Of a DNA stretch of 64,000 bases, positions 15,071-43,617 are shown piece by piece. Made by a program: the position numbers and the translations under genes. Below the pieces are notes generated by a model. It had not been told where the DNA came from. It was given only the letters and a program-made list of their open reading frames with translations, and did no database searches. Each line of letters begins with the position of its first letter. Within the stretch, counting starts at the first letter, position 1. The stretch comes from Aggregatilinea lenta (GTDB lineage Bacteria; Chloroflexota; Anaerolineae; Aggregatilineales; Aggregatilineaceae): contig NZ_BFCB01000002.1 in the NCBI RefSeq assembly GCF_003569045.1, positions 496,001-560,000 on the forward strand, written 5' to 3'.

Positions 15071-18000
15071 CTACCCCACCGCCTCGTCCGTCGCCACCGG
15101 ATCGGTCAGCGTCTCGGTCGCGGCGGGCAGAGATTCATCCATCACCGGCGCGGTGCTCATGGGTGCGTCAGGCAGACTGTCGTCCGCCGCCATCGTCGTG
15201 TCGATGGTCAGCCCGGTGTCTTCGGTGGCCTCCGCATCCGGCTGCGCCGGCACCGGCAGCACACCGCCCAGGAAGTCCAACTGCGCGAAGACGTAGATCG
15301 TCGCCTGCTCGGCATCGATTACCACCAGGCGGCCCGCGTCGTCGAAGGCCAGGCCCGCAGGCGAGCGCAGCCCCAGAATGTTCTGATCGAGCTGGTCGGC
15401 CTGGTCGAACGACGCCACCACCTGCCCGTTGAGATCGTAGGCCACGATGCGCTCGTGGTCGTCCATGTCGGTGGCGAACACCAGCGAGCCGTCCGGGCTG
15501 ATAGCCAGATAGGGCCGGTTGGACGATTCACGGTTGGTGAACCACATATTCACGCTCCACGCGCGCAGCGAGGTGCCGTCCGGCGCGAAAACCTGGATGC
15601 GCTGGTTCCACGACTCGGCCACATAGAGGTCGCCGTCGACGGGGTTCAGCGCGAGGCCGACCGGCTCGTCCATCTGGCCCAGCTCGGTTCCACTGCCGCC
15701 GATGTCGCGCACGAACTCGCCCTCGGACGTGTAGACGCGCACGCGCTTGTTGCCCGTGTCGGCCACGTAAACCGTGCCGTCCGCGCCCACGACGATGTCG
15801 CGCGGACCCCAGAAGGCGTCAGGCGAGGTGTCGTCCGGCAGCACGCCCTGGTGGCCCCACTGCCGCAGCAGCTCGCCATCCGGCGTGAAGATCTGGACGC
15901 GGTGATTCCACGTATCGGCCACATAGACGTTGCCGTCCGGTCCAAGGGCCACGCCCCACGGCTGGAGCAGCAAACCCGCCTCGCTGCTGCCGGTGGTGTT
16001 CTCGCCGATGGTGCGCAGCAGGTTGCCGCTGCCGTCCAGCACGGCGATCCGGCTGTGATCCGTGTCTGCAACGTAGATCTCGCCGTCATCCGACACGGCC
16101 ACGCCGCGCGGGTTGAGCAGCACGGACGTCTCGGCGAGGATCGTTTCCGCCGGGATGTCGCGGTAGGCCACGTCTTCAGGATATTCCGGCGAGCGGATGT
16201 CCACCGACGCGCCGCCGATCCCGGCGTCCCAGATCTGCGCCGCGATCTCCTTGTCCACGAAGAAGTACATCCGGTCGGAAACAGGCCAGTTGTTGACCGA
16301 GAAGCGCGTATCGCCGCTGCACTCGGTCACCACGGAGCGCTTGCACAGGTCGCGCAGGCGATCCTGCTCCTCAGGCGTCGCGCCCGCCGCCGCTTCGGAC
16401 TCACAACGCGATTGTTTTTCCTGAATGCACTGCGCCTCGCCAAAGGTCTCGTAGTCGCGGTTGAACCAGATATCCCACAGGCCCTGCCGCAGGTACGGCG
16501 CGGCGATGTCGTCGGAATCGAGGCTGAGCACATCGGTTACGCGGTCGTAGGTCAGGCCGAAGTAGTCCTGCATCGGCCACCACAGCCGGATGAAACTGTA
16601 TTCGTAGTAGCGGTCGCCCAGGATGCGGCGCACGTCGCCGACCTTCTTACCGCCCACCACGACAACCCGCGCGCCGTCCAGGCTGGACGCACTGACCGAT
16701 CCTGCCTCCCCGGCGATGTAGCTGTAGTTGGTGTAGTGGCGGAAGTACCACGTAAACGGCCACGACGACTGGTCGTCGTAGACCACCCGCATGTTGTAGC
16801 CTTCATTGGTCTTGGTCGCGATGTCGTCCACCATGTCCATCACGGTTTTGACCGCCGGCCCGCTGTGCGCGTAGACGAGGTATTCCGTCGCGTAGTCGTA
16901 GTCAATGTACGCCGCGCGGACGGACGCCCGCACGGTCAGGATGCTCAGCAGCACCGCCCCGGCGATGACCACCAGACGGCTCATCTGCTCCGTCCCGATG
17001 CGCCGGATGGAACGCACCACCACGTACAGCGCGGCGAGGCCCAGCAGCAGCGCCGCGAACCACGTTCCACTGGCAGCCAGATCGGCCACGTCGCGTCCCT
17101 GGAACGGCGCCTGATCGCCCCACAGCGCGACCAGCGCGTGCGCCAGCGACACGAAGCCCACCGGCAGCACCACCAGCGTCACCAGCAGCCCGCCGCCGCG
17201 CAGCGACTCGCGCCGCACCCCCCCGATCACGCGGCCCAGCCACCAGCCCGCCGCGAAGGTCATCGGCACGACGATATGCGTCGTCAGCCAGGGCATTTTC
17301 TCGCCCGCCACCGTCAGGCCGAGCGTGATCAGCACCAGCCAGAATCCGACGAACGGCATGAAGGGCAGCTCGCCCAGCCAGTCGCGGGCCGTCGCGCGCT
17401 GTTCCAGTTCTTCGTCATAGTCGTATGGCCGGTAGTAGCGCGGAATATCCGGCATGTAGCGCACGACGCTCGGATCGTCGGGCAGCTCGCCCGTACCGCC
17501 ATCCGGCCCGGCAGGTACAGCGAGAACTTCCGGCTCGGCGAGCGGCGTCTCGTCCACATCCAGCGCCGCGCTGTCGTCGAGCGCCTCGGCCTCGTTCCAG
17601 TCCTCGTCAACCGTGACGCGCCCCTCCTGAACCTGCACGCGCCGCCAGCGCCACAGCGCGCTCAGCCCGGCGACCCCGGCAAACATCGAGCCGATCAGCG
17701 GCAGGAACTCGTAGACGGGCACCTGCGTCAGCAGGTAGTAATACTGCGGCTGGCTGCCGCGCCGGACGCCCTGCTGCGCCAGCCAGTAACCCAGCGAGCC
17801 GACCATACCGGTCGCCGTGCCGTTGATGTTGCTGAACACAGTCGTGTAGAAGAACGCAAACAGGCCCAGGAACACCGCCGTCACGGGGAGCCAGCGCCGC
17901 CAGTTCCACGCCAGCCCGATGGTCAGCGCCACCACCGCGAACGGGACGAAGGCCGTGATCGCCGCGTTGAGCGTAGCCTGACCCGTCGCGTTGGTGGGAC

Positions 18001-19618
18001 TGTATTCTTCCAGGTCGTAGCCACCCAGGTAAAGCGGGACCGCCGTCGCCCAGGGTAACACCAGCGTCACGATGACCACGACGAGGTCGAACGTCGGCTG
18101 GCGATCGAGCACGGCCCACCAGTCGGTCAGGAAACGCGTGCCCAGGATGAACAGGACCGCCACTGCCGCGATGCCCCACGTTGCCCAGATGTAAATGTCG
18201 TCATACTGCCCGTCGACGCTGCTGCCATTACCCGTCACGTCCGCCGCGAACGGCTCCGATCCGGTGTCTTCCGCGACGTGGCTGTGCCGCTCGGCAAAAA
18301 GCAGCACGCCGCATATCAGAAACGCCACCAGCAAGATCAGCAGGATCTCCCGCCACGGCAGCGGAACCGTGCCAGGAAAGGCAAACACCGCCGTCAGCAC
18401 CACCGCGAAGATCAGCGCCAGCGCGGGCAGCCCGATCCAGGTGCTCAGCCGCATTAACATGGTGGTATCAACGGTGGTTTCGACGGCGTATTCTTTCGTC
18501 GTGTTGACCCCGTTGATCTGGTCTTGCGCGCTGCTGACACTGCTCGTCTTCCACACGTCACCCGGCTTGATCACGTCCAGCACGGAAATGATCGTCAGCG
18601 CCATGATCGCGCCGACCACCGTCCCGGTGATGACCACCAGGAACGACGAGCGCGTGTTCGACAGGCCGCGCACCAGCGCCAGCGCCGCGCCTTCGTCGGA
18701 GCGGCCCCGGCTGAACAAGCCGTGCAGCCAGCCGGACGCGGCCAGCGGCAGGTACAGCACCAGGAACACCGGCAGCACGGTATAGGCGTCCGAGGGGATC
18801 CAGATCGTCGGCAAAAGATACTGGCGCAGCAGCAGGCCGATCAGCACCGCCGCCAGCGCGGTCAGCGCCAGCAGAACCACGTGCCCGGTCGCAGCCTGAA
18901 GCCACGGCGCGCGCCAGTGACTTCCCCCGGCGGGACGCGGGTGCACGCCGATGTCCTGCACGGTGCGCAGCAGCATGAAGAACAGCAGGTACGCGGCGAA
19001 GATCAGAACGTACATGAACACCAGCTCTTTGGACGCCAGCGCCAGCAGCATGCCCGCCGCCGCCACGATCAGCCACCGAAACTGCCGCTGCGGTCGCCCG
19101 TCCACGTACTGGAAGATACCGTAGATGAACACGAGCGTGAAGAACAGGGTCGGGATGTCTTCGCGGATGTAGCGGCTGTAGTACAGGATCTGCGGCGAGA
19201 TCAGCAGCATGGCCGAGGTCAACACCGCGCCCAGCCGTCCCAGCCAGCGCCGGAACAGCAGCGGGAACATGACTACCAGCACGCCCAACAGCGCGGCGTA
19301 GATGCGCGCCGTGAAGTCCGTGTCGCCAAACAGGTAATAAAACAACGCGTTGGCGTGGAAGATCACCGGGCCGTGCATCAACGGCGTATGGCTGAACTCA
19401 CCGAACTCGTACAGCCGCCACGAATAGTAGGTGTGCAGGCTTTCGTCGTGGCTCATCACGCGCGCGCCCAGATCCACGAAACGCGTAACGATCGCCAGCA
19501 CCAGGATGGCCGTGTAGGCGATGACCTCCCAGTTCAGCGAATAGACTCGCGCCAGCGCCCGGTTGACGTCCTGCTCGCGCGTATCCAGGGGGGAGTAGAC
19601 TTGTTCACGAGTAGCCAT
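15071..19618 (-). CDS. Agl23-like (TIGR03663) GT-C membrane protein with C-terminal NHL beta-propeller
   Basis: A 1515-aa membrane protein. The first extracytoplasmic loop holds the acidic motif MSHDES (D58, E59), as in GT-C glycosyltransferases that use polyprenyl-linked sugars. Multiple transmembrane helices run to about residue 930 and are interrupted by charged loops. Residues about 1163-1450 form six NHL-type repeats with the pattern PxGVAVxxDGxIYVADTxxxR, expected to fold as a six-bladed propeller outside the cell. The family is named after a haloarchaeal protein linked to surface-glycan assembly. The start at 19618 is chosen because the protein then begins MATREQ before the first helix. 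A terminator follows. It is probably the last gene of the glycan region. Function as transferase or flippase partner is inference. Confidence 0.8.
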   Translation of the reverse strand: MATREQVYSPLDTREQDVNRALARVYSLNWEVIAYTAILVLAIVTRFVDLGARVMSHDESLHTYYSWRLYEFGEFSHTPLMHGPVIFHANALFYYLFGDTDFTARIYAALLGVLVVMFPLLFRRWLGRLGAVLTSAMLLISPQILYYSRYIREDIPTLFFTLVFIYGIFQYVDGRPQRQFRWLIVAAAGMLLALASKELVFMYVLIFAAYLLFFMLLRTVQDIGVHPRPAGGSHWRAPWLQAATGHVVLLALTALAAVLIGLLLRQYLLPTIWIPSDAYTVLPVFLVLYLPLAASGWLHGLFSRGRSDEGAALALVRGLSNTRSSFLVVITGTVVGAIMALTIISVLDVIKPGDVWKTSSVSSAQDQINGVNTTKEYAVETTVDTTMLMRLSTWIGLPALALIFAVVLTAVFAFPGTVPLPWREILLILLVAFLICGVLLFAERHSHVAEDTGSEPFAADVTGNGSSVDGQYDDIYIWATWGIAAVAVLFILGTRFLTDWWAVLDRQPTFDLVVVIVTLVLPWATAVPLYLGGYDLEEYSPTNATGQATLNAAITAFVPFAVVALTIGLAWNWRRWLPVTAVFLGLFAFFYTTVFSNINGTATGMVGSLGYWLAQQGVRRGSQPQYYYLLTQVPVYEFLPLIGSMFAGVAGLSALWRWRRVQVQEGRVTVDEDWNEAEALDDSAALDVDETPLAEPEVLAVPAGPDGGTGELPDDPSVVRYMPDIPRYYRPYDYDEELEQRATARDWLGELPFMPFVGFWLVLITLGLTVAGEKMPWLTTHIVVPMTFAAGWWLGRVIGGVRRESLRGGGLLVTLVVLPVGFVSLAHALVALWGDQAPFQGRDVADLAASGTWFAALLLGLAALYVVVRSIRRIGTEQMSRLVVIAGAVLLSILTVRASVRAAYIDYDYATEYLVYAHSGPAVKTVMDMVDDIATKTNEGYNMRVVYDDQSSWPFTWYFRHYTNYSYIAGEAGSVSASSLDGARVVVVGGKKVGDVRRILGDRYYEYSFIRLWWPMQDYFGLTYDRVTDVLSLDSDDIAAPYLRQGLWDIWFNRDYETFGEAQCIQEKQSRCESEAAAGATPEEQDRLRDLCKRSVVTECSGDTRFSVNNWPVSDRMYFFVDKEIAAQIWDAGIGGASVDIRSPEYPEDVAYRDIPAETILAETSVLLNPRGVAVSDDGEIYVADTDHSRIAVLDGSGNLLRTIGENTTGSSEAGLLLQPWGVALGPDGNVYVADTWNHRVQIFTPDGELLRQWGHQGVLPDDTSPDAFWGPRDIVVGADGTVYVADTGNKRVRVYTSEGEFVRDIGGSGTELGQMDEPVGLALNPVDGDLYVAESWNQRIQVFAPDGTSLRAWSVNMWFTNRESSNRPYLAISPDGSLVFATDMDDHERIVAYDLNGQVVASFDQADQLDQNILGLRSPAGLAFDDAGRLVVIDAEQATIYVFAQLDFLGGVLPVPAQPDAEATEDTGLTIDTTMAADDSLPDAPMSTAPVMDESLPAATETLTDPVATDEAVG

Positions 19619-19771
19619 AACGATCCGTTTCCCGTTATCCAACAAACGCCGGTCAAGACGGCGGCAGACCGCTTGCCCGGAGATCAGCGTACACAGAGCC
19701 TGCACCTAGCGTGATGGTGTCTGTTCATGGTGGGGCGTATCGCTCTATGCCCCATTCCTGCCAGGTTTTTC

Positions 19772-19835
19772 CATAGGGGCAGGGCTTGCCCTACCCGGTT
19801 TTGCCCACAACGGGCGAGGCAAGCCCCGCCCCTAC
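19772..19835. repeat. Family A repeat, tandem form
   Basis: The ends are ATAGGGGCAGGGCTTGCCCT and GGCAAGCCCCGCCCCTAC, with CGGGCGAGG between them. It is an imperfect large palindrome between the GNAT gene and the Agl23-like gene. The rest of 19619-19859 shows nothing else. Confidence 0.6.
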
Positions 19836-19859
19836 GCTTACGCCTTACCGTATCCGCTG

Positions 19860-20321
19860 CTATCCCTCGTCGAAAAGCTTGACGAAGCGGTAGCCGGTGG
19901 TCGCGTAACCAAGCGCCTCGTAAAAGCGGTGCGCCTCGTCCTTGCGCCCAAAGCCACTCACCAGCCACGTCCCGACGCAGCCATGTTCGCGCGCCAAATC
20001 TTCCGCATAGGCAACCAACGCCCGACCGACCCCGTGACGGCGCGCACTCGCATCGGTCACGAGCATCGAAATTTCACCGTGACACCCTACGCGGACCAGC
20101 ATCTCGCGCAGCCGGAAGCCCATCACGCCGCACACGACGCCGTCCACTTCGGCCACGTACCACCAGTCCACCGGGCTTTGTTCGACCCAGGCCAACCGGC
20201 CCACAATCTCGTCGTCGGTCATCTCGACACCCGACAACTGGCACAGCATCGGGCGCACGGCGGGCGCGTCCTCGACCCGCATATGGCGGATCACGGGTGA
20301 TGATGTCGGCTCGTCACTCAT
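19860..20321 (-). CDS. GNAT-family N-acetyltransferase
   Basis: A 153-aa acetyl-CoA-dependent acetyltransferase. The acetyl-CoA loop is RRHGVGRALVAYAEDLA, preceded by strand GEISMLVTDASA. The C-terminal HRFYEALGYATTGYRFVK is the standard final motif. The start at 20321 is an ATGA overlap with the stop of the anti-sigma gene, so it is translated from the same mRNA as the sigma/anti-sigma pair. The substrate is unknown; position suggests a link to the envelope regulon but nothing proves it. Confidence 0.87.
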   Translation of the reverse strand: MSDEPTSSPVIRHMRVEDAPAVRPMLCQLSGVEMTDDEIVGRLAWVEQSPVDWWYVAEVDGVVCGVMGFRLREMLVRVGCHGEISMLVTDASARRHGVGRALVAYAEDLAREHGCVGTWLVSGFGRKDEAHRFYEALGYATTGYRFVKLFDEG

Positions 20322-20893
20322 TGAACCATCCACGCGTCCGGTGACTGCGTCATACGCGGGACCGGGACCGGGCTGACCCCAGCCTCGTTAGACACGTACG
20401 CTACGGTCGCGGCGGGCGTCGCGGGCGTCTGTTCCAGCTCGGCTGCCACGTTTTGCGTCGCGGCTTCCCCGGTCAAGCTGGCCGTCGGCGATCCGATGGC
20501 GTCCAGCTCGGCGGGGCGCGGCTGGACCGGCGCGGCTTCGGCGCGCACGCCGCTCTGCGAAATCAGCGGCAGCACCACCATCACCACCAGCAGCGCCGCG
20601 ACCATAAAACTCAGGCCCGGCAGCCACGTCGAGCCGGACAGCCCGCCCCGGCGGCCCGAAGTGGCGACCTCGCCCCACACGCCGGCCCAGACGTGGGCCA
20701 ACTGCCCCTGCGTCGCCTGCCCGAAGGCGGGCATCTCGCGGCGCATCCCGGCGGCGAGGCGTTCCTCGCGGACCAGCGCGGCCCGGCACGACGCGCACGT
20801 GCGTACGTGGTTGATCACCTGCGCGACCTGCGCGGGTGCCAGTTGGTCGTGAACGTAGCGGGTCAGCAAATGGGTTACATGACGGCGTCGCAT
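20318..20893 (-). CDS. Anti-sigma factor with zinc-finger (zf-HC2) and one membrane helix
   Basis: A 191-aa single-pass membrane protein. The N-terminal cytosolic domain has the ZAS motif HVRTCASC (His-x3-Cys-x2-Cys), which binds the partner sigma factor. One membrane helix follows (LSFMVAALLVVMVVLPLI, about 95-112). The extracytoplasmic tail is about 75 aa, rich in Pro, Ala and Thr and without a recognisable domain. A GTG at 20920 is an alternative start. It follows the ECF sigma gene by about 145 bp, a gap that contains a family A repeat, which is unusual because such pairs are normally tightly coupled. It overlaps the GNAT gene by 4 bp. Confidence 0.85.
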   Translation of the reverse strand: MRRRHVTHLLTRYVHDQLAPAQVAQVINHVRTCASCRAALVREERLAAGMRREMPAFGQATQGQLAHVWAGVWGEVATSGRRGGLSGSTWLPGLSFMVAALLVVMVVLPLISQSGVRAEAAPVQPRPAELDAIGSPTASLTGEAATQNVAAELEQTPATPAATVAYVSNEAGVSPVPVPRMTQSPDAWMVQ

Positions 20894-20973
20894 TGCATCA
20901 CCCAATTTCAACTCAATCACAGCGGTCAGTCTTCAGTGCTTAGCCACTTCCAGCGGCGCAAACTCTGTTTTCC

Positions 20974-21023
20974 CGTAGGGGGCTTGCTCCGCCCGGTGTT
21001 TCATCCGGCATCTCGTAGGGACA
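20974..21023. repeat. Family A repeat between sigma and anti-sigma genes
   Basis: CCGTAGGGGGCTTGCTCCGC is followed by a second CTCGTAGGGAC. It matches the GTAGGGGC-GCTTGC-GCCC pattern of the copies at 19772 and 39800. Confidence 0.5.
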
Positions 21024-21037
21024 ATTGGCCTCAACGG

Positions 21038-21655
21038 TTACAGACTCCACAGTTCTTCGAGTGCGGCCCGATCCGCCCCGGACATCGCCCGGCGTAACTG
21101 CTCATGCGCCAGCCGGACCCGGCTTTCGGCGGTCTTCTGCGGGCAGTCCATGATCTCGGCCATCTCGCGGTAGGTCAGGCCTTGCCCATAGCGCAGGGCG
21201 ACGGCTTCGCGCAGCAGCGGCGAGAGCGTCCCCATCGCGCGGCCCAGCGAATCGCGCAGCTCGCCCCACGCGGCGCGCGCTTCCGGCGACTGCTCGGCAG
21301 GCGTCGGCGGCTCTACCCCGATGTTCAGCAGGCTGCTTAGGGCGACGGTCGGCAGCCACTTGCGGCGACGGGCGTTGCGACAGCGGCTGACCGTGATGGT
21401 ATACAGCCACGTGCGGAACGCGCCGCGCTCCGGGTCATAGCGCTGCAGGCTGCGGAAGGCGTACACCATCGACTCTTGCAGCACGTCCTCCGCGTCCTGC
21501 TCGACCAGCAGCACGCTGTAGGCCAGCCGGTACAGGCTGGGCGCGTAGCGCTCGTACAGCGTGGCGAATGCCGATTGATCGCCGCTCTGGCAGCGTGCGA
21601 TCAACTCCGGCAAATCCGGGTCATTCGTCTGAGTGAGAATGCGTTCGTCGCTCAT
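21038..21655 (-). CDS. ECF (sigma70 family, group 4) RNA polymerase sigma factor
   Basis: A 205-aa alternative sigma factor. Region 2 spans FATLYERYAPSLYRLAYSVL through the polymerase-binding DAEDVLQESMVYAF and the -10-recognition RGAFRTWLYTITVSRCRN. Region 4 contains LREAVALRYGQGLTYREMAEIMD and the helix-turn-helix KTAESRVRLAHEQLRRAM. The MSDERI start at 21655 is chosen over a slightly longer frame. It lies 27 bp after a GT-C gene and upstream of its anti-sigma factor, so it is embedded in the surface-glycan run and may control it. The regulon promoter was not identified. Confidence 0.92.
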   Translation of the reverse strand: MSDERILTQTNDPDLPELIARCQSGDQSAFATLYERYAPSLYRLAYSVLLVEQDAEDVLQESMVYAFRSLQRYDPERGAFRTWLYTITVSRCRNARRRKWLPTVALSSLLNIGVEPPTPAEQSPEARAAWGELRDSLGRAMGTLSPLLREAVALRYGQGLTYREMAEIMDCPQKTAESRVRLAHEQLRRAMSGADRAALEELWSL

Positions 21656-21682
21656 AGCGTCTATTGTACACACTGCGCCGGT

Positions 21683-23641
21683 TTATTCCTCAGCCGTGCC
21701 CGTCGCGACGCCGTACACGTCGCTGCGGATCCACAACATCACCGTCTGGCCCGGCACCGGCTGAAGCTCCGTGTCGCCCCGGTAGACCCACGCCAGCGCG
21801 TCGCGCCAGGTGAGCGCGCGTACCGTCCAGGCGCGCACCAGCACGAGGTCCTTGCCGACATAGGCCGCGCCGAGGTCGTTCGGCATCTGTTCGGCGGGCG
21901 TGATCACCGCCGCCGTGCTGACCTCCGGCCCGACGCCGTTCACGAACGTCGTGTTCGGATAATCGTGCAGCGCCCAGGCCAGCGCGCCGCCGTCCGCCTG
22001 CGCCGTGATCGGGATCAGGTTCGGCGTGCCATTGGTACGCAGGCTCATTTCGCGCAGGGTATCTTGCAGCTCGCGGATGTCGTCCGTCGCCGGGCTGGGA
22101 TACCACAGCTCACGCGGGTCGCCGTAATGCAGAGATGCGGCCCGCCCCGCCGATCCTACGCCGAAGATGAGCAGGAACGCCAACGTGCCGAGCGCCGTGC
22201 CACGCCATGCCGTGCGCGCCCCCCAGACTGTGCCCACCAGGAAGAACAGCATCGCAACAGCTAGCGGCACCAGGATCACCCACACCAGCCGCTGCTGCAT
22301 CAGGCCGAGCACGTAGGCGTATACGCTCGCGCCCTGGACCATCACCGTTTCGCCGCTGGTCGAGTCGTGCGTGTAGATGCCGCCGAACAGCTCGCGCGCC
22401 AGCGGGCCGAAGTCGGTGATCGTGCCGGGCAACTCCATGAACAGCTTTCCAAGCTGGATCACGCTGATGGCGATGGCGGTCCACAGCCCAAACGTAATCG
22501 CGGCGTGCAGGCCCACGCCCCACCCCGGCACCTTAAACAGCGTCCCGGCGGTTTCGGTCAACCAGCGGCAAACCGACAGCCCGACCAGGATCGTCAGCGG
22601 CAGCGTGATCCACAGCGCGTGCGCCGCCGTCGCGCCCTGATAGGCCAGCGACAGCACCAGCCCGGCCACGAACCAGCCCGCCAGCGTGCGCTCGAAAAAA
22701 CCGCCGTTGCGGATGACGTGGTAGCATGCCAGCAGTCCGAAGACGACCATCGCCGGGTCGTAGCGCAGCGCGATCCACAGCGGAAACGCGGCCAGTTGGT
22801 CGTCCGGGCGTTCCACGAAACCGCGCAGCCCGGTCCACACGCCGTTGCCGATCACGGACGGGCCGCCGGGCAGCAGCATCAGTCCTGTCCCGACGACGAT
22901 TACCGTCACGCCCGCCGCCAACGCCCCGCTGCCCCACGGCCACCCGCGCAGCACCTCACGCAGGATGGAGCCGGGCTGCTCGTCGGGGTCCGCACCGGAC
23001 AGCCACGCGAAGCCCATGCCGAAAAGCAGCAGGAACAGGGTGATGAACCCGGCAGGCTCGGCCAGCAGCGCTAGCGCGGCGACCGCCGCCGTCGCAGCAG
23101 CGCCCCATTCGGCGCGGCGCGTCTCGTAGAAGCGCAGCGCCAGCCACGGCGCGACCACGGCCAGCAGTGCCGACCAGATCGCCGGGCTGCTCGTGCGTGA
23201 GGCCAGCAGCGCGACCGGCGACACGGCCAGCAGCGCGCTGATGATCAGCGCGGGCAGCGGTCCCAGGTAGCGCCGCCACAGCAGCGGCGCGAGCGCCAGC
23301 AGCCAGCCGCCCAACGCGACGGGCAGGCGCGCGGCGAAATCGCCCGGCGTGAAGACGGTGAAGCTGATCGCCTGGAGGAAATAACTCAACGGGCTTTGCG
23401 CCAATGCCTCCGTGCCGGGCGCGTCCGGCTCGACGGCGCGCAACGCGGCCAGCGCCCCGTGCGCCTCGGCGTCGTTCAGCGGCGCGTGGCCCAACTGCGC
23501 CAGCCGCAGCGCGCCCGCCAACACCACAATCGCCACGATGATCGCGGCCTCCAGCGTGATGCGCACCGTCAGGCCCGCCTCGCGCGCCTGGGGATCGTCT
23601 GCGGCAGGGTGTGCCGCCGCGTCGTGTGCCAATACGGTCAT
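21683..23641 (-). CDS. GT-C-type polytopic membrane glycosyltransferase-like protein (652 aa)
   Basis: The protein has an N-terminal helix from about residue 28 and the first-loop acidic pair in PLNDAEAHG (D57, E59), followed by about ten more helices. The C-terminal soluble part (about 520-652) would lie outside the membrane. This layout is that of the PMT/ArnT/Agl23 superfamily, which moves sugars from lipid carriers. The acceptor is unknown. The ATG at 23641 is preceded by GGGAAGAGACG. The gene is 15 bp downstream of the 881-aa DUF2298 protein and 27 bp upstream of the ECF sigma gene, so the three are almost certainly co-transcribed. Confidence 0.78.
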   Translation of the reverse strand: MTVLAHDAAAHPAADDPQAREAGLTVRITLEAAIIVAIVVLAGALRLAQLGHAPLNDAEAHGALAALRAVEPDAPGTEALAQSPLSYFLQAISFTVFTPGDFAARLPVALGGWLLALAPLLWRRYLGPLPALIISALLAVSPVALLASRTSSPAIWSALLAVVAPWLALRFYETRRAEWGAAATAAVAALALLAEPAGFITLFLLLFGMGFAWLSGADPDEQPGSILREVLRGWPWGSGALAAGVTVIVVGTGLMLLPGGPSVIGNGVWTGLRGFVERPDDQLAAFPLWIALRYDPAMVVFGLLACYHVIRNGGFFERTLAGWFVAGLVLSLAYQGATAAHALWITLPLTILVGLSVCRWLTETAGTLFKVPGWGVGLHAAITFGLWTAIAISVIQLGKLFMELPGTITDFGPLARELFGGIYTHDSTSGETVMVQGASVYAYVLGLMQQRLVWVILVPLAVAMLFFLVGTVWGARTAWRGTALGTLAFLLIFGVGSAGRAASLHYGDPRELWYPSPATDDIRELQDTLREMSLRTNGTPNLIPITAQADGGALAWALHDYPNTTFVNGVGPEVSTAAVITPAEQMPNDLGAAYVGKDLVLVRAWTVRALTWRDALAWVYRGDTELQPVPGQTVMLWIRSDVYGVATGTAEE

Positions 23642-23655
23642 CGTCTCTTCCCGTC

Positions 23656-26301: not shown

Positions 26302-26367
26302 CGCGTCCAATCCTAAACAGCAGCTTTCAGCGGTTAAGTAGACAATCGAAAGAAATGAGCGAAAAAA

Positions 26368-26434
26368 CCTCACCCCTGGTTCCTCTCCAATCTGATTGGA
26401 GAGGGGAAATGGGGCCGGGGGTTAAGGGGTGAGG
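26368..26434. repeat. Family B palindromic repeat, most complete copy
   Basis: The outer arms are CCTCACCCCT and AGGGGTGAGG. The inner arms CCTCTCCAATC and GATTGGAGAGG form a perfect hairpin with one central base. It lies between the giant fusion gene and the 881-aa gene. Nothing else is seen in 26302-26495. Confidence 0.75.
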
Positions 26435-26495
26435 TAAATCACGCTACCCCAAGCATGTGCCAGATCTTTTCGACAAGTCACTTAACCGTTCGCCC

Positions 26496-33542: not shown

Positions 33543-33605
33543 CCGTAACTCGCAGCAACATCCCAACCGTTTTTATAACACGCTGATTTCTGGCCGGTTC
33601 ATATT

Positions 33606-33637
33606 CCGTAGGGGCAATTCATGAATTGCCCCTACGG
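33606..33637. repeat. Perfect 32-bp palindrome (family A)
   Basis: CCGTAGGGGCAATTCA is followed directly by its exact reverse complement. There is no spacer, so it could fold as a cruciform or as an RNA hairpin of about 14-15 bp. It lies in the 192-bp gap upstream of the giant fusion gene. Confidence 0.85.
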
Positions 33638-33678
33638 GGACGTTCTGGCAATACATCATTTAGCGATTGTTAGCGCAC

Positions 33679-33703
33679 GGGCGGAGCAAGCTCCGCCCCT
33701 ACG
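33679..33703. repeat. Family A palindrome
   Basis: The arms GGGCGGAGC and GCTCCGCCC flank AA and are followed by CCTACGGG. It lies 41 bp from the perfect 32-bp palindrome. Confidence 0.65.
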
Positions 33704-33734
33704 GGATCTGTACCTTTTTGCTGGGCGCTAACCG

Positions 33735-35606: not shown

Positions 35607-35664
35607 GACCTCACCTTCTTCGCGGCGTAGTTCCTGTGGAATACACGCCCAGGCCGCGTAATCC

Positions 35665-38600
35665 TCACCCGTCCAGATCCAGGTTGGCACCCGGCGCGTG
35701 GAAGATTTGGAAGTCGGCGGTAACAAGGCCGTCCGACGTTTCGTAGCTGTAGGTGTACGTCTCGATCGTCCCGCCGGGGATCAACTGCTGGAGGTAATCC
35801 GCCGTTTCGGGATCGTTCGAGTTGAACATGACGAAGATCGGCCTGCCCGGATCGAACTGGTAGGCTGTGCCCTGGTTGAGCCGGATGCGCACCAGCAGAT
35901 CTTCACGCTCGACGAGGCCGTTCGGCCAGCGGATGTCGCCCGCCACCGTGCCCAGGATGCGGTGATCGAGCCAGTAGGGGTAGGCCACCATGAACGCGTT
36001 GCCGTAGCTGCCCTCGCCCCGCGCAAATTCGCGCATCGGTGCGGCGATGGCGTGGTAAGGTCGCCAACTGTAGGCGTAGCTCAGGCGGTAGTCGTCGAAG
36101 AAATTGGTCCAGTTGGGTGGCAGAGCCGCGCCCGCCACGCCCGCGACCACGGCCAGCCCCAGCACGACCCGCGTCACGGCCATCCGCCGGTCGCCGCTCA
36201 GCGCCCGGACGACGCTGGCGCACAGCAGGCCCACCGGCAGCGCCGCGAACAGGTACACGACCGGGATCGTGCCGCTGGCGCGCGTGAAGCTCGGATTCTC
36301 GTTAGTATAGGCCAGGGTCATGGCGGAGGGCAGCAGCATCACCAGCCCGGCGGCGGGCAGCAGCCAGTCCACCGGATCGCGCCGCCGCAGCATGCGCCCG
36401 ATCCACAACAGTCCGCCAAGCGCCAGCAGCCCGCCCGTCAGCGCATCCATCGCGGGCGTGAGGTCCGCATTGGTGATCCACATCTCGTCGCCCTGCCAGT
36501 GATACATGCGCAGCGCGTCGCGGAAGTTGTCCGCGAACACGTCGCGCTGATCCATGAAGCGCTCGACCTGCTCCATCAGGCTCGGATCGTACGGCACCAT
36601 CCCGCCTGCCTCAGGCTCGTAGTGCATGAAGGCGTTCTCGCCGAACATGCGGCCCCAGGTGCGATTCCAGAAATAATCGGGAAACAGCTCGCTGTAGCGG
36701 TACATCGGCACGAACACCGCCAGCGCAATCACGACCATCGCCAGCGCCCCGCCGCCGTAGCTGAACACGGCGCTGCGCGCCCACCAGCGCGAGCGCAGCG
36801 CCAGCGCGATCACGCCGCACCACAGCATCGCAAACAGCGGCAGGAACGTGCCCAGGCGCTCGCCCGCGTCCTGCGCCGCCTCGCCGGACGCGCCGCTCAG
36901 CGCCGCCGTTACGCCCGCATAAGCCAGCAGCGGCACGCCAACCGCCCCCGCAAGGCCCAGCCCGTGCAGCAGCGTCCGCCCCAGGCCGTCCCACGAGCGC
37001 GCCTGCGCCAGCACCGCCAGCGCGACGCCGATCCCGACCGCGACCGGCAGCATGCGGTTCGCCTGGTAGAAGTAAATGCCCGCACCAAGCGTGAAGCCGA
37101 GCTTGAGCCAATCGCTCAGACGGTTGTGGCGCATCGCGCGCGCCAGGAAACCAATCACCAGCGCGGCAGTGAGCGGCGTCAGCACGATGCGCAGTCCCAG
37201 CCGCGACAGCATGATATGCCACGAGCTGACCGCGACCAGCGCCGCCATCGCCAGCCCGACCCAGTTGCCCAGGTCGCGGCGCGCCTCGGTGTCGTCCCCG
37301 AACACCTGCCGCGCCATCCACCACAGCAGCGGCAGCGTGACGGTGCCTTCCAGCACGGTCGCCAGCTTCAGCGCCGTAAAGCTGTAGCCCGCGCCCAGCT
37401 CCGCGATGAACGCCACGAGGTACATCTGGAAGCCTTCGCGCCCGCCGTTGTTGGGGAAGAACACGCCGTAATGGCCTTCGCCCACGCGCAGCGAATCGAG
37501 CAGCTTCTCGATGTGGTCGCTGGTCATTTCCGGCGGGGTGGAATCCAGTGAATGCAGCCGGATGGCCGCGCCCGCCAGCGTGATCAGCAGAATCGCCAGC
37601 ACCGGCCAGTACGGACGCCGCATACGCGGCAGATCCGGCAGGTGCAGCGGTGGGCGGTGGGCGATCCACGCGCGCAGATCCACCGACAACGCCACGATCC
37701 ACAGCGCGATACTGATCACCCACGCCGTAAACCCGATTGGGGTCAGCACCACGTCCAGAATTTTGCCGCCGGGGTCGCGCTGGACGTTGAACACAAACGT
37801 GAACGCAGAAAACAGCAGCGCGACTGGCATCAGCAGCAGTTGGTATATATGTGCATAAAACCACGGCCAGAAGCCGCGATCCTCGCTGGTCACCACAGAC
37901 GCGGCGGCGTCCGCTTCGACCGGCGGCGCGGCCTCGTCCGGCGGCGCTTCGATGGCGATAGGATCGGCGAAGGCTACCTCGGCGGGGGACAGGCGCAGCA
38001 GCGCGATCACCCACAGCCCGAAGAACAGCACCGGCACGATGACGCTGTGCAGCAGCAGCGACGCCACGAACAGCAGCCCGGTCCCGCCCAGCAGGACCGT
38101 GTTGAGCGCCAGCGCTTCGGTCGGCGGGAGCGGATGCCGCAGCAGCGCGACCGCACGCGGGAAGCGCCGCGCCCATCCACCGCGCCGCGCGAAGATCTCG
38201 AAGCCGGTGACCATCGCCCCGGCCAGTACAAAGCGTGCCAGCGCCGCGCCGATCATGTCCGCGCGCGTCGGGTCGCTTTCCAGCCGCGCGGCGTTGAGCA
38301 GCGCGCCGCCCCACACGGCCAGCAGGATCGCCGCCACCAGCACCACCACGCGCGCCGCCCAGGGCGACATCTCGCTCGCCGGCGTGGGCGGGCGGGCGAT
38401 ATCGCCCGGTTCGGCCTCCGCTGCGCGTTCGATCGCGACTTCATCCTCGTCGCTCAGGTACCGCACGCGCGAGGGCACAGCGTCTGGCGCGCCCAGGGCC
38501 AGTTCCGGCGCGGTGGACGTCTGCCCCGGCACGCGCGTCAGGACGCGCCACAGCAACCGCCCGGTAATCGCAGGCCGCCACCACAAATAGCGCAGCGCCT

Positions 38601-38751
38601 CGACCAGCGTCAGGTCTTCGATGCGCACCTGACGCGTGGGGGATGGCTCCGGCGCGGGAACGTCGTCCGTGGGCGGAACAACAGACGCCGCCTCGGCGGG
38701 CGGCTCAGGACCGATCGGCAGATCGGGCGGAAGATCGGGATATTCAGCCAT
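35665..38751 (-). CDS. Large GT-C-type membrane protein with long cytosolic N-terminus (1028 aa)
   Basis: Residues 1-130 are hydrophilic and Pro/Glu-rich. Helices then run from ~130 to ~370, including a charged loop. A second polytopic block begins at ~385 (YWPVLAILLITLAGAAIRLH), and its first loop holds PPEMTSDHIEKLLD, the position of the GT-C acidic residues. Another loop has YGVFFPNNGGREGFQMYL, also seen in related Chloroflexi glycosyltransferases. The C-terminal 200 residues are largely soluble. The double-length N-terminus is unusual for the superfamily. The ATG at 38751 is used. It lies 17 bp after the methyltransferase and 58 bp before the 623-aa protein, so these three form one unit. 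Confidence 0.78.
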   Translation of the reverse strand: MAEYPDLPPDLPIGPEPPAEAASVVPPTDDVPAPEPSPTRQVRIEDLTLVEALRYLWWRPAITGRLLWRVLTRVPGQTSTAPELALGAPDAVPSRVRYLSDEDEVAIERAAEAEPGDIARPPTPASEMSPWAARVVVLVAAILLAVWGGALLNAARLESDPTRADMIGAALARFVLAGAMVTGFEIFARRGGWARRFPRAVALLRHPLPPTEALALNTVLLGGTGLLFVASLLLHSVIVPVLFFGLWVIALLRLSPAEVAFADPIAIEAPPDEAAPPVEADAAASVVTSEDRGFWPWFYAHIYQLLLMPVALLFSAFTFVFNVQRDPGGKILDVVLTPIGFTAWVISIALWIVALSVDLRAWIAHRPPLHLPDLPRMRRPYWPVLAILLITLAGAAIRLHSLDSTPPEMTSDHIEKLLDSLRVGEGHYGVFFPNNGGREGFQMYLVAFIAELGAGYSFTALKLATVLEGTVTLPLLWWMARQVFGDDTEARRDLGNWVGLAMAALVAVSSWHIMLSRLGLRIVLTPLTAALVIGFLARAMRHNRLSDWLKLGFTLGAGIYFYQANRMLPVAVGIGVALAVLAQARSWDGLGRTLLHGLGLAGAVGVPLLAYAGVTAALSGASGEAAQDAGERLGTFLPLFAMLWCGVIALALRSRWWARSAVFSYGGGALAMVVIALAVFVPMYRYSELFPDYFWNRTWGRMFGENAFMHYEPEAGGMVPYDPSLMEQVERFMDQRDVFADNFRDALRMYHWQGDEMWITNADLTPAMDALTGGLLALGGLLWIGRMLRRRDPVDWLLPAAGLVMLLPSAMTLAYTNENPSFTRASGTIPVVYLFAALPVGLLCASVVRALSGDRRMAVTRVVLGLAVVAGVAGAALPPNWTNFFDDYRLSYAYSWRPYHAIAAPMREFARGEGSYGNAFMVAYPYWLDHRILGTVAGDIRWPNGLVEREDLLVRIRLNQGTAYQFDPGRPIFVMFNSNDPETADYLQQLIPGGTIETYTYSYETSDGLVTADFQIFHAPGANLDLDG

Positions 38752-38768
38752 CAATAGGGTCCGGCGGA

Positions 38769-39635
38769 TTAGACGTACGGATCAGGTCCAGGCTTGCGTC
38801 CCTTGAGCGCGAGGTTCACCGTGCTGCGGCCCGGCGGCTCGTCGAGCTTGTTGGGCCGGTCGAACAGGTTCAGCACGGCCACGCCCAGATTGATCGGATT
38901 TAACAGGCTGCCGCGATTCTTGTCAAATGTCGTGCGGTCGGCGGCGTTCGCCATGCCCTCCGGCATCAGGCCCGATTCGAGCAGCGGCTTGCCCAGGCCG
39001 TACACGAGATTGTGGATGAACGGGAAGCTGGTGTGCGTGAACGCCCGCTCCACCTCAACGGTGAAACCTGCTGCCTGCGCCGCCGCGCGCAGGTCGTCGC
39101 GCTCGTACAGGCGCACGTGGTTGGCCCAGATGCCCGCCAGCGGTCCGCGCCGGATCTTGGTATGGAACAGCGTTTCGAGCGTCTTGTTGATCGGGTCCCA
39201 CCAGAACGGATAGTTCGCGTTGGGCACAGTGATCGCCACCACACCGCCCGGCTTCAGCACGCGAAACACCTCGCGCAGCCCGGCCACGTCGTCGTCGATG
39301 TGCTCCAGAATTTCCGACAGCAGCACGCCGTCGAAATAACCATCGGGGAACGGCAGACGGTAGATGTTGCCGCGCGTCAGCGTCACGTCCGGCAGGCTGC
39401 CCACGTTGCGCTGCGCCTTGCGGATGATCTCGTCGTCCAGTTCCAGCCCGACGAGCCGCGCGCGGCTGACGGTGCGGTACATGTTGAGGTAAAAACCGCG
39501 TCCGCACGCACAGTCGAGAATGCGTGCGTCGTCGCGCGCGGGGACCCATTCGAAGATGGACTGGACCCGCTTCTTGAAGGCCATGTCCGCCTCGTTGCGG
39601 GTCAGGCGCTGAATCGTCTGTTGATCGACCGTCAT
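38769..39635 (-). CDS. Class I SAM-dependent methyltransferase
   Basis: A 288-aa cytosolic protein. The SAM-binding motif I is ILDCACGRGFYLNMY, the acidic end of strand 2 is VGLELDDEII, and the post-I motif is GYFDGVLLSEILEHIDDD with the Methyltransf_11 layout. KPGGVVAITVPNANYPFWWD follows. Such enzymes in glycan loci often methylate sugars or lipid-linked intermediates, but that is inferred from context. The ATG at 39635 is preceded by CAGGGACTT. It is the first gene of the unit with the 1028-aa and 623-aa GT-C proteins. Confidence 0.88.
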   Translation of the reverse strand: MTVDQQTIQRLTRNEADMAFKKRVQSIFEWVPARDDARILDCACGRGFYLNMYRTVSRARLVGLELDDEIIRKAQRNVGSLPDVTLTRGNIYRLPFPDGYFDGVLLSEILEHIDDDVAGLREVFRVLKPGGVVAITVPNANYPFWWDPINKTLETLFHTKIRRGPLAGIWANHVRLYERDDLRAAAQAAGFTVEVERAFTHTSFPFIHNLVYGLGKPLLESGLMPEGMANAADRTTFDKNRGSLLNPINLGVAVLNLFDRPNKLDEPPGRSTVNLALKGRKPGPDPYV

Positions 39636-39735
39636 AAGTCCCTGTTCAGCGGGCGGCGATCCGGTTGGATCGTCACCCCGCGCGTGCGCAAAAAGTATTC
39701 TGGTGCGCAATCGGTGCTGCGCGCCTTCCCTGGAA

Positions 39736-39773
39736 CTCACCCCCGGCTTCTCTCCAACTTGATTGGAGAGGGG
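39736..39773. repeat. Family B palindromic repeat
   Basis: It begins ACTCACCCCCGGCTTCTC and contains the near-palindrome TCTCCAACTTGATTGGAGAG. It is close to the copy at 26368 and immediately precedes a family A copy. Confidence 0.65.
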
Positions 39774-39799
39774 CGACAAGCACCGCCCAGGTGCTTTTC

Positions 39800-39860
39800 G
39801 TAGGGGCGGTGCTTGCTCCGCCCGGTTTTTGTAAAGACAGGGCAGGTTTGTAACCCGCCC
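39800..39860. repeat. Family A repeat, tandem form
   Basis: GTAGGGGCGGTGCTTGCTCC is followed by GCCCGGTTTTTG and then by GGGCAGGTTTGTAACCCGCC. It lies between the haem-binding gene and the methyltransferase gene. Confidence 0.6.
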
Positions 39861-39877
39861 GATTTTGGTCCCTACTC

Positions 39878-40345
39878 TTACCCGGCGTTCGCCTGCCCGT
39901 CTGTCTGGGAGAAAGTCGTGCGCAGCCCGTCGATGAGCTGCTGCTTTTCCGCGTCCGACAGGTTGGCGTTAGAGTGCATCCATGTGTAGTAGATGGGCGG
40001 CATCTCACCTTCGTCGATGACCTCGACGAGTTCATCGACACTTTGCGGATTATTGGCCCAATCAGAGAAGTTCATCACGCCCCGACCTTCGTCCACGTCG
40101 CGCCACACCAGCAACTTGGTCGGCGCCACTTTCGAATACCAGGGCCAGACCGTCTCGTTGCTGTGGCAGTCGAAGCAGGCTGCCACGGCCAGATCGCGCG
40201 TCTCAGGCGAATCCCAATTCGGCTCGCTGACCACAGGCGGATTGTCCCGGCTCATAGGAATGATCTGGATGACAACCAGGGCGAGAATCGCCACCAGCGC
40301 AATCGCTCCGACGATCTTTTTCCAGTTTTGCCTGATGCTGTCCAT
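39878..40345 (-). CDS. Membrane-anchored haem-binding domain protein (c-type, CxxCH)
   Basis: A 155-aa protein with one N-terminal membrane helix (about 11-30) and an exported domain. The haem attachment motif CFDCH is at residues 57-61 inside ACFDCHSNETVWPWYSKVAP, the hallmark of the Haem_bd (PF14376) family, and MPP at 115-117 could give the axial Met. Such proteins are taken to be small redox carriers; the partner is unknown. The start at 40345 is chosen because TTGGAGAACGCG precedes it. It is 78 bp downstream of the GT4 gene. A cytochrome in a glycan region is unexpected and may be a passenger. Confidence 0.87.
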   Translation of the reverse strand: MDSIRQNWKKIVGAIALVAILALVVIQIIPMSRDNPPVVSEPNWDSPETRDLAVAACFDCHSNETVWPWYSKVAPTKLLVWRDVDEGRGVMNFSDWANNPQSVDELVEVIDEGEMPPIYYTWMHSNANLSDAEKQQLIDGLRTTFSQTDGQANAG

Positions 40346-40423
40346 CGCGTTCTCCAAGGAGCAAAGCCACACACGGCTGCCCATGCAGTCGTTTGAATGA
40401 TACTCCTTAGATGCGGCAGCGGG

Positions 40424-41620
40424 CTAATCGTCGTAACCGCGTCCCTGTGCGGCGGCACGGCGGAACTGCTTTTCGTAGCGATCGACCGTCTGCGTCAGGT
40501 TGAACGTGCGGTCGATCTCGTCGCGCGGCTTAACGTACTGGTCGCGGTGCTCCAGCACGTCGATCACCGCCTCGCCAATGGCGCGCCAGTCGCCGCGCGG
40601 CACGATCTTGCCCATGCCCGTCTCGGTCACCGGGACGCGCCCGCCGGGCGTGTCGGTCATGACGACCGGCGTACCGCACAGCATCGCCTCGACCTGCACC
40701 AGCGCGAAACATTCCGAGTCGCTGGGCAGCACCAGCACATCGCACGCGGCGAAGAAGTTCGCCATCGCCTGCATGCTGTTGAGCTGGCCCAGGAAAATAA
40801 GCTGTTCCTCGTAGCGCTGGACGAGCGCCTGGTTGCGCTCCCAGGTGTCTTCGTAGCGGATATCGTACTCCCCGGCGAAAACCACGCGCGCCGTGGGGAA
40901 ACGCTGGTTGATCACTTCCAGCGCGCGGATCAGCAGGTCGGGCCGTTTTTCCTCCACGAACCGCCCCGCGTAGCCGATCACCGGGCCGCCGTCGCTCTGC
41001 CAGCGCTCGCGCAGTTCCGCGACGCGCTCCGGGTCGGGATCGGGGACCTGGATCGGCGGATAAATCACAGATACCTTGTCGCGGAACGGCTTCAGATAGT
41101 AGCTGTGATCGGCGTAGTCGTGACTATACGCAATCAGCCGCGCGGCGCGTTTGGCGAGCACGCGGTAATTCTCGAACGTAAACCAGCGCACGAAGCGGTT
41201 GAAAAAACCGCTCGGCAGGATCAGGTCGCCGTGATGCGTGGAAATCACTCGCTTCCCCTGCATCCCGGCCAGCGTCGCCACCAGCGCCGTCTCGAGCATG
41301 GGCGTATGCATCCATACCACGTCGTGCGTGCGGATCAGGCCCCACGCCGCCCACGGATAGGCGGGCATCACCATCCCCCGGCTGACGCGGATCGGGGCCC
41401 ACAGGCGCACCAACCGCACGCCGTTGATCGTCTCATCACGCGGCAGGTCGATGTGGTGGCGCGCGGTGAGGATCGTCACCTCGTGGCCGCGCTGTACCAG
41501 CGCCTCCGCCACGCGCTGCACGTGGATCGGCACGCCCGTGCGGTGCGGCAGGTAATACTGAAGCGTCACGAGGATCTTCAGCGCGCTGTCGGCTGGGAGT
41601 TGCGTATCGTGTTCGGTCAT
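40424..41620 (-). CDS. GT4-family glycosyltransferase
   Basis: A 398-aa GT-B fold enzyme that uses nucleotide sugars on the cytoplasmic side. The N-terminal domain begins ILVTLQYYLPHRTGVPIHVQ. The C-terminal domain has IGYAGRFVEEKRPDLLIRAL and the EX7E nucleotide-sugar motif in DSECFALVQVEAMLCGTPVV. The donor and acceptor cannot be named. It is 33 bp downstream of the YbhN-type membrane protein, a very common pairing in lipid- or polysaccharide-glycosylation operons. Confidence 0.9.
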   Translation of the reverse strand: MTEHDTQLPADSALKILVTLQYYLPHRTGVPIHVQRVAEALVQRGHEVTILTARHHIDLPRDETINGVRLVRLWAPIRVSRGMVMPAYPWAAWGLIRTHDVVWMHTPMLETALVATLAGMQGKRVISTHHGDLILPSGFFNRFVRWFTFENYRVLAKRAARLIAYSHDYADHSYYLKPFRDKVSVIYPPIQVPDPDPERVAELRERWQSDGGPVIGYAGRFVEEKRPDLLIRALEVINQRFPTARVVFAGEYDIRYEDTWERNQALVQRYEEQLIFLGQLNSMQAMANFFAACDVLVLPSDSECFALVQVEAMLCGTPVVMTDTPGGRVPVTETGMGKIVPRGDWRAIGEAVIDVLEHRDQYVKPRDEIDRTFNLTQTVDRYEKQFRRAAAQGRGYDD

Positions 41621-41653
41621 GGTCCGCTACATCAGTACCCGTAATGGTTCCGG

Positions 41654-42706
41654 TTAAACGTCGGTCAGGGTCGTTTGTGCGTCGATTTCCGCTGGTGCTT
41701 GTGACTGCCGCGTCCGCAGGCCCTGCGCGGCGCGGGTCACTTCGCCCAGGCTGACGTCGAGCGCCCACAGCCCGGCCAGCCCGGCCAGAATATACGTGCC
41801 CAGGTTGACCGCGTGCAGAATCAGCGCCAGCGCCACCGCGCGCGGATCGGTGGTCTGCGCGACCAGATCCGCCGCCGCCAGCCCGAACACGATGGCCGCT
41901 TCGAATGGGCCGAGATTGCCCGGCACGGCAGGCACGGCCACCACAAACGACGCCAGCGCAATCATCGCCATCGACGCGACCCAGGTCGGGTCGTCGAAGA
42001 TCGCGTACAGCATCACGTAGCCCGCCGCCACGGACGTAAACCACGCTGCCGCCGTCCACCATACCGAAAGCAGCAGCAGGCGCGGCGACGCCAGTGGGAG
42101 GATGCCTTCCAGCAGGTCGTCCACCCAGGCGTGCAAACGCGGCGTATCCAGGAACTTGAACACGCGTCCCACCCCGCGCAGCACGGCGTGCGCCCAGGCG
42201 GGCCGTGCGGCGAACACCGCCAACACGATCACGCCGATGATCGCACCCACGCCGAGCGCGATGCCCACCAGCCCGATTTCCAGCCCGGTTGGCAGCACGG
42301 CCAGCGTAATCCCCACCAGTCCGAACACGGCTAACGTATCCAGCAGCCGCTCGACCACCACCGTACTGATCGAGGTCAGCACCGGTACGGGCGGATCGGC
42401 GCGCAACGCCAGCACCGCGCGCGCCAGTTCCCCGACGCGCAGCGGCAGTACGCCGTTGACGAAGTAGCTGATGTTGAGGATGTGGAAGCTGTCCGAGGGC
42501 GACAGGCGGCCCTTAAGCAGCACCCGCCAGCGGATGCTGCGCAGCCACAGGCCCAGCAGCGAGATCGCCATCACGGGTAGCACTGTCCAGTAGCGGGCGT
42601 TCGCCAGCTCGTCACGTACCCCACCCAGGTCGCGCCGGAAGAGGTACACCAGCGCGATGATGCTCACTGCCAAACCGAGCAGCAGGCTCGGCCATCGTTT
42701 TTTCAT
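41654..42706 (-). CDS. YbhN/LPG synthase-type (UPF0104) integral membrane protein
   Basis: A 350-aa protein with about eight membrane helices. Family features are SIRWRVLLKG after the third helix, NISYFVNGVLPLRVGELARA with the conserved Arg, TVVVERLLDTLAVF, and the VPAVPGNLGPFEAAIVFGL block. The family includes the membrane part of MprF and the putative flippases of glycan systems. The ATG at 42706 removes a hydrophilic upstream extension. It leads the minus-strand glycan run; the adjoining 42707-42946 gap lies between it and the divergent copZ-like gene. Confidence 0.87.
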   Translation of the reverse strand: MKKRWPSLLLGLAVSIIALVYLFRRDLGGVRDELANARYWTVLPVMAISLLGLWLRSIRWRVLLKGRLSPSDSFHILNISYFVNGVLPLRVGELARAVLALRADPPVPVLTSISTVVVERLLDTLAVFGLVGITLAVLPTGLEIGLVGIALGVGAIIGVIVLAVFAARPAWAHAVLRGVGRVFKFLDTPRLHAWVDDLLEGILPLASPRLLLLSVWWTAAAWFTSVAAGYVMLYAIFDDPTWVASMAMIALASFVVAVPAVPGNLGPFEAAIVFGLAAADLVAQTTDPRAVALALILHAVNLGTYILAGLAGLWALDVSLGEVTRAAQGLRTRQSQAPAEIDAQTTLTDV

Positions 42707-43542: not shown

Positions 43543-43617
43543 GCGGGTATAGTTCAGTGGTAGAACGTCAGCTTCCCAAGCTGAATGTCAGGGGTTCGAA
43601 TCCCCTTACCCGCTCCA
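43543..43617 (+). tRNA. tRNA-Gly (anticodon CCC)
   Basis: A 75-nt cloverleaf with CCA encoded. Acceptor GCGGGTA pairs with TACCCGC. The anticodon stem TCAGC/GCTGA carries the loop TTCCCAA, giving anticodon CCC (reads GGG). The T arm is AGGGG-TTCGAAT-CCCCT. It has its own promoter and terminator, so it is a single-gene unit. Confidence 0.96.

Follow-up and report, generated by a model that had tools for sequence, protein, structure and literature searches.

The GT-C fold and superfamily of glycosyltransferases, like the family names used here, are already known, and several described systems resemble a locus found on the minus strand of Aggregatilinea lenta, a member of the Anaerolineae (Chloroflexota) with a genome of 6.2 Mb. 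The locus occupies positions 15071-42784 of a 64,000-nucleotide stretch of contig NZ_BFCB01000002.1, hereafter called the window. In mycobacteria, lipoarabinomannan and arabinogalactan assembly leads from cytoplasmic GT-B enzymes to a series of outer-face GT-C enzymes (PimE, MptA/B, AftA/B/D, EmbA/B/C), some of which carry carbohydrate-binding domains (PMC12041525, PMC11127046). The three-component Gtr/GT136 systems of periplasmic glycosylation are made of one synthase, one flippase and one GT-C enzyme that uses a lipid-linked sugar outside the membrane. Agl23 of Haloarcula hispanica (TIGR03663) is likewise a GT-C-type protein in a glycan pathway, and its flipping activity has been established for the archaeal protein alone (PMC11182771). 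Finally, TIGR03662/PF10060, also called Chlor_Arch_YYY or DUF2298, is a family for which the libraries and literature searched give neither a fold nor a function; one protein of the window and the C-terminal half of another are members.

The window locus resembles the mycobacterial systems in its succession of a cytoplasmic glycosyltransferase and putative outer-face GT-C proteins, but it is built from other sequence families, its block is devoid of a DprE1/DprE2 or AcpM partner and some of its GT-C units are fused in one chain. With Gtr/GT136 it would share the GT-C enzyme and the lipid-linked sugar outside the membrane, whereas it counts at least five GT-C units and no synthase. Its Agl23-like protein differs from that of H. 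hispanica by a C-terminal NHL propeller and by its place in a bacterial multi-GT-C locus, and its DUF2298 members are predicted here to be GT-C proteins with an STT3-like domain. We consider it likely that the genes of its conserved core serve a single pathway in which a glycan is assembled from polyprenyl-linked sugars outside the cytoplasm.

A preliminary description of the block, made from its sequence, had listed 13 genes. All 13 are present, and their stated identities were borne out by profile searches. Four minus-strand frames (Agl23-like, fusion, gtC1 and GT4) were examined for third-position GC and had values of 0.87-0.89, while the plus-strand frames overlapping them had 0.66-0.68, which favours the minus strand as the coding one. 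Spacing between the longest open reading frames ranges from -62 to +194 bp. Five large GT-C-type proteins are found in the block, one of them (26496-33566) being a fusion of two GT-C units. The curated TIGR03662 cut-off (300.25 bits) was exceeded twice, by the 881-residue DUF2298 protein (23656-26301; 417.4 bits) and by the C-terminal half of the 2356-residue fusion (442.1 bits); DUF2298 thus appears twice in the locus, unfused and fused, and the two copies align with an hhalign E-value of 7e-123. In the same way, the Agl23-like protein at 15071-19618, which ends in an NHL beta-propeller (NHL 140 bits), scored 240.8 bits against TIGR03663, for which the curated cut-off is 126.25 bits. The 652-residue gtC4 (21683-23641) reached 72.6 bits, below that cut-off, and is therefore best described as a diverged, short Agl23 relative rather than a member. 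Since gtC4 is such a relative and DUF2298 occurs fused and unfused, the locus comprises two paralogous pairs.

PMT_2 was above the Pfam cut-off in 15071-19705, 21683-23851 (28.4 bits for gtC4) and 33735-35726 (41.4 bits for gtC2) as well as in 52911-54872; the match of the unfused DUF2298 protein lies in 23656-26373. The 1029-residue gtC1 (35665-38754), which has an N-terminal extension, fell just under it (25.3 versus 26.1 bits), and its orthologue in another locus (L091) scored 41.7 bits. Apart from DUF2298 and the N-terminal half of the fusion, the GT-C proteins of the block are assigned as such on the strength of this sequence match. The whole genome holds 43 PMT_2 places, and therefore a GT-C gene nearby is by itself no evidence of membership in the locus. 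Together with eight Wzy_C places, all outside the locus, these make up an unusually large repertoire for glycosylation at the outer face.

When the DUF2298 profile was searched against the sequences of the PDB, no credible relative came up, and the fold was therefore predicted. The AlphaFold2 model, computed from an alignment of 73 loci, had a mean predicted local distance difference test (pLDDT) score of 90.3 and a predicted template modelling (pTM) score of 0.94. With Foldseek, its top match was the archaeal oligosaccharyltransferase AglB (E 1.8e-3, probability 1.0), global TM-scores were low and nothing fell under E 0.001, so that the case for the fold rests on VIA-align. This gave Z-scores of 16.4 for yeast STT3, 13.8 for ArnT, 13.1 for Pmt4 and 12.8 for AftA, while those of clearly unrelated chains stop at about 6. 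Moreover, residues 719-878 superpose on the C-terminal domain of AglB-S2 (3vu0) with a Z of 12.8, at 2.5 A over 129 residues. DUF2298 is accordingly modelled as a GT-C fold bearing an STT3-like C-terminal globular domain. The STT3/AglB/PglB group provides the top structural matches of this model and of that of the fusion, which suggested an STT3-type oligosaccharyltransferase. This candidate was rejected: WWDYG, the acceptor-binding motif of the STT3 C-terminal domain, is absent from all 73 DUF2298 sequences, and at E 1e-3 PF02516 (STT3) matches nothing in the genome. The conserved residues differ as well.

The fusion is organized as a GT-C unit (about residues 55-730), a beta-sandwich region (about 740-1115), an alpha/beta part and a DUF2298-type GT-C unit (about 1310-2300). 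The model of its N-terminal half (pLDDT 90.0, pTM 0.88) gave VIA-align Z-scores of 28.6 with AglB, 27.3 with ArnT and 26.2 with Pmt2, versus at most 8.2 with chains that are not GT-C, and the predicted fold is unambiguously GT-C. The beta-rich region (model residues 690-1060) bears a weak likeness to beta-sandwich domains, including the carbohydrate-binding domain of a xylanase (Z 7-8). Its length falls in two ranges, about 130-170 residues in most fusions and 258-330 in others, as if these proteins carried one or two such domains. In three loci the N-terminal half is a separate gene of 602-619 codons adjoining DUF2298, and in three others an HPDE-type N-terminal half is joined to two DUF2298 units in a chain of about 2500-2700 residues; two YYY motifs are also present in one further locus. 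Separate genes, the two-unit chain found here and the three-unit chain, all of which occur in other classes, form a natural series of gene fusions in Chloroflexota. To our knowledge, no characterised protein joins two or three GT-C catalytic units in a single chain.

The candidate active sites are strongly conserved. In DUF2298, E135, D156, R318, E337, D347, H349, H351, R627, N629 and K633 are kept in 73/73 sequences; in the fused unit, the equivalent of E135 is kept in 55/55 and nearly all other invariant positions are retained. The motif HPDE is kept in all 60 N-terminal halves of the fusion, HDE in 28/28 sequences of the Agl23-like alignment, in which GEKMPW is also invariant, and D413 and E416 in 41/41 gtC1 sequences (D420 is likewise invariant). 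Conservation is lower in gtC4, where E59 is found in 42/43 sequences and the position of D57 is D or E in 31/43. According to the secondary structure of the models (DSSP), E135 of DUF2298 directly precedes helix 136-148 and the HPDE of the fusion (41-44 in model numbering, hence D43/E44) stands at helix 42-53; in both cases the residues open a short helix of the first large loop. GT-C enzymes carry their acidic catalytic residue in external loop 1, at the tip of the first juxtamembrane helix, and the catalytic aspartate of PimE, ALG6, ArnT and PglB has this position (PMC12041525). E135 and D43/E44 are thus predicted to occupy the GT-C catalytic-Asp position, as placed by sequence and secondary structure rather than by side-chain superposition. 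Each GT-C family of the locus appears to keep acidic residues at the catalytic-base site, gtC4 more weakly, and by analogy these proteins may use lipid-phosphate-linked donors.

Gene order was compared in 80 loci, the best matches of a scan with the DUF2298 alignment, taken with 10-kb flanks; loci long enough for a given gene are called eligible. The preliminary description had made the clustering of these genes in related genomes a test of its proposal, and they are indeed kept together. The recurrent order is (YbhN)-GT4-methyltransferase-gtC1-fusion-DUF2298-gtC4-(sigma-anti-sigma)-Agl23-like, and most of the Anaerolineae examined keep it, even where the proteins are no more than about 33% identical. 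Among eligible loci, DUF2298 adjoins the fusion in 57/65 and gtC4 in 54/62, and it is accompanied by gtC1 in 49/62, GT4 in 37/62, the methyltransferase in 36/62 and the Agl23-like gene in 26/56, and an ECF (extracytoplasmic function) sigma factor gene is at the matching position in 19/60. A DUF952 gene is inserted between fusion and DUF2298 in L091, L106 and similar loci. The YbhN or LPG_synthase_TM-type membrane protein, with its flippase-like domain (41654-42706; PF03706 145 bits, TIGR00374 47 bits), has orthologues upstream of GT4 in four loci. GT4, a predicted cytoplasmic glycosyltransferase (40424-41620; PF00534 103 bits), is 56-69% identical to its orthologues in the closer loci. The S-adenosylmethionine-dependent methyltransferase (38769-39779; PF08241, homology from about residue 46) has a single orthologue, 53-85% identical, in each of 20 other genomes of the order, drawn independently, and shares a contig with DUF2298 in 16 of them; three of the other four are fragmented. 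To judge from these comparisons, the conserved core consists of YbhN, GT4, the methyltransferase, gtC1, the fusion, DUF2298, gtC4 and the Agl23-like/NHL protein.

TIGR03662 was found in 147/150 genomes of the class and in all 103 good ones (at least 90% complete, at most 5% contamination), TIGR03663 in 100/100, and in at least 36 class genomes of the listings compared both lie on one contig within about 10 kb. At strong scores, 130 of 201 Chloroflexota genomes have both DUF2298 and Agl23-like proteins, three have DUF2298 only, none has Agl23-like only and 68 have neither. The three exceptions belong to one genus and show no Agl23-like protein at E 1e-25; they are natural candidates for learning which function is separable. 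Among 14 control genomes, each family matches just Haloferax volcanii and Methanosarcina acetivorans. Far from Chloroflexota, a DUF2298 protein was also found on a plasmid of the rumen bacterium Pseudobutyrivibrio (NZ_CP043029.1; 10001-12202 in locus L134), where the gene is surrounded by GT2, O-antigen ligase and sugar-nucleotide genes of a polysaccharide region, a context that fits glycan assembly. Plasmid searches for archaeal loci found none, and with an Agl23 query the matches were mainly NHL proteins.

Taken in order of their presumed action, GT4 and the methyltransferase would act at the cytoplasmic face, where they produce or trim a precursor. Precursor and polyprenyl-phosphate sugars would then cross the membrane, the candidates for this step being YbhN and/or the Agl23-like protein. 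Outer-face GT-C units would add sugars in succession to a lipid-linked or surface glycan, with the beta-sandwich of the fusion holding the growing chain and the NHL propeller of the Agl23-like protein serving for docking. In part of the class, the pathway would be regulated by the in-operon pair formed by the ECF sigma factor (21038-21673; TIGR02937 97 bits) and a zf-HC2 zinc-finger anti-sigma factor with one transmembrane segment (20318-20920; PF13490 26.7 bits). On characterised GT-C enzymes (EmbA/B/C, AftD, GT136), carbohydrate-binding domains go with polysaccharides (PMC11127046); a polymeric acceptor is therefore suggested by the beta-sandwich of the fusion.

Several observations weigh against a single glycan-assembly pathway of this kind. 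No polyprenyl-phosphate-sugar synthase is part of the conserved set and the donors must therefore come from elsewhere. The closest functional data, those on archaeal Agl23, concern translocation of lipid-linked oligosaccharide and not glycosyl transfer (PMC11182771). With its weakened motif, gtC4 may be a non-catalytic partner. Comparison of DUF2298 with the N-terminal half of the fusion by hhalign revealed no sequence relation, probably because of long insertions, so that their link rests on the fold. As regards conservation, near relatives of the window protein are over-represented among the 80 loci, and the Fisher statistic for DUF2298/Agl23-like co-occurrence is uncorrected for shared ancestry. 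In one genome of the order the locus genes are truly dispersed, and in many Anaerolineales the locus is without the sigma factor gene and the Agl23-like gene, gtC4 being followed by cmk, plsC and a histidine kinase gene. This kinase is of the Cache/HAMP/GAF/PAS type.

Protein O-glycosylation is the first alternative to be considered. The GT-C proteins would act like bacterial or fungal PMT enzymes, attaching sugars directly to exported proteins, and the paralogous pairs, which are encoded side by side, would form heterodimers comparable to Pmt1-Pmt2. The PMT_2 matches, the good fit of the models to the Pmt4 and Pmt2 structures and the STT3-like C-terminal domain of DUF2298 all speak in its favour. 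Nevertheless, five or more GT-C units are many for one protein modification, and the one or two beta-sandwich domains of the fusion recall characterised GT-C cases in which the acceptors are polysaccharides. No known peptide-recognition motif is found here either, since the genome is devoid of STT3 and DUF2298 of WWDYG. We regard this explanation as unlikely.

A somewhat less likely alternative is that the Agl23-like proteins, and perhaps DUF2298, flip lipid-linked oligosaccharides or sugars on a GT-C scaffold without any transfer. In proteoliposomes, lipid-linked Man5GlcNAc2 is translocated by the Agl23 of Haloarcula, which also takes the place of yeast Rft1 (PMC11182771), and PIGU is an example of a GT-C-like fold that has no transferase activity (PMC12041525). 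However, the strict conservation of an acidic and His/Arg/Lys pocket in all main families exceeds what a flippase scaffold would need, and the H. hispanica protein is linked to that of the window by family name only. Chance adjacency of common GT-C genes, which the 43 PMT_2 places and the lineage extras of the block could bring to mind, is hardly credible, given that gene content and order are kept across the class down to the identity mentioned above, that a nearby nucleotidyltransferase gene used as internal control is not kept, that DUF2298 and Agl23-like proteins co-occur throughout the phylum and that 80 independent contigs exclude a single-contaminant artefact. Extracytoplasmic glycan assembly thus remains our preferred reading. 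We further propose, as a tentative and rather less secure view, that DUF2298 is a new glycosyltransferase family and the centre of a glycan pathway outside the cytoplasm that has not been described before, which nearly all Anaerolineae and some archaea would possess. Sugar transfer in this pathway would be organised on multi-headed proteins, with two GT-C units per chain in the present genome and three (one HPDE-type and two DUF2298) in other Chloroflexota.

The preliminary description had also made a GT-C core in structure prediction a test of its proposal; for the two proteins of doubtful fold, DUF2298 and the N-terminal half of the fusion, the models do show the conserved seven-helix core. 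On the other hand, it had drawn the locus too large, since three genes of the block are essentially without counterpart in the 80 loci. The 623-residue PMT_2 protein gtC2 (33735-35606), seemingly accessory, has no match in them, nor does the haem-binding-domain protein (39878-40384; PF14376 122 bits), apparently a lineage-specific insertion; the GNAT acetyltransferase (19860-20333; PF00583 56 bits), probably accessory too, has one clear counterpart. The plus-strand gtC6 (52911-54872; PMT_2 28.5 bits), a sixth PMT_2 protein for whose membership nothing speaks, is also without match in the 80 loci, though these end short of its position. We take these four for local extras, in a genome that has 43 PMT_2 places. 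The phosphomannomutase/phosphoglucomutase and GlmU-like nucleotidyltransferase genes (46117-48943, minus strand), a possible donor supply, had been included as well; the pair was set aside because the nucleotidyltransferase gene, 4-5 kb beyond YbhN and also our internal control, is linked to the locus in just two of the 20 order genomes. The statement that the pathway would not be a standard Wzy system holds for the locus, whose proteins have no Wzy_C match (no genome-wide search was made for Wzx or Wzz), but not for the cell, which may have a Wzy system outside the window, given the eight Wzy_C proteins encoded elsewhere. Overall, the initial interpretation as a surface-glycan or protein-glycosylation locus is partly supported.

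Around the locus, a tRNA-Gly (ccc) gene lies just upstream, at 43543-43617. The segment 136-8818 resembles a nusA-infB-rbfA-ribF region, with an rbfA-like frame at 4173-4640 and a ribF-like one at 136-1086, identities being judged by eye. In two loci of other genomes nusA follows the Agl23-like gene, and proS-like and GAPDH-like genes intervene in the window.

Searches of open-access papers for DUF2298, TIGR03662 and TIGR03663 yielded two incidental mentions; the role of Agl23 is taken from PMC11182771. Descriptions of the DUF2298 fold, of this conserved locus, of an obligate pairing between DUF2298 and Agl23-like proteins or of chains with two or three fused GT-C units appear to be absent from that literature; subscription journals may hold more. 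DUF2298 gains a predicted fold, a likely activity and a firm link to the Agl23 family. Little is known of the envelope chemistry of Chloroflexota, a large and abundant phylum, and a locus of giant membrane enzymes that have no assigned function, present in every good Anaerolineae genome examined, offers a direct handle on it.

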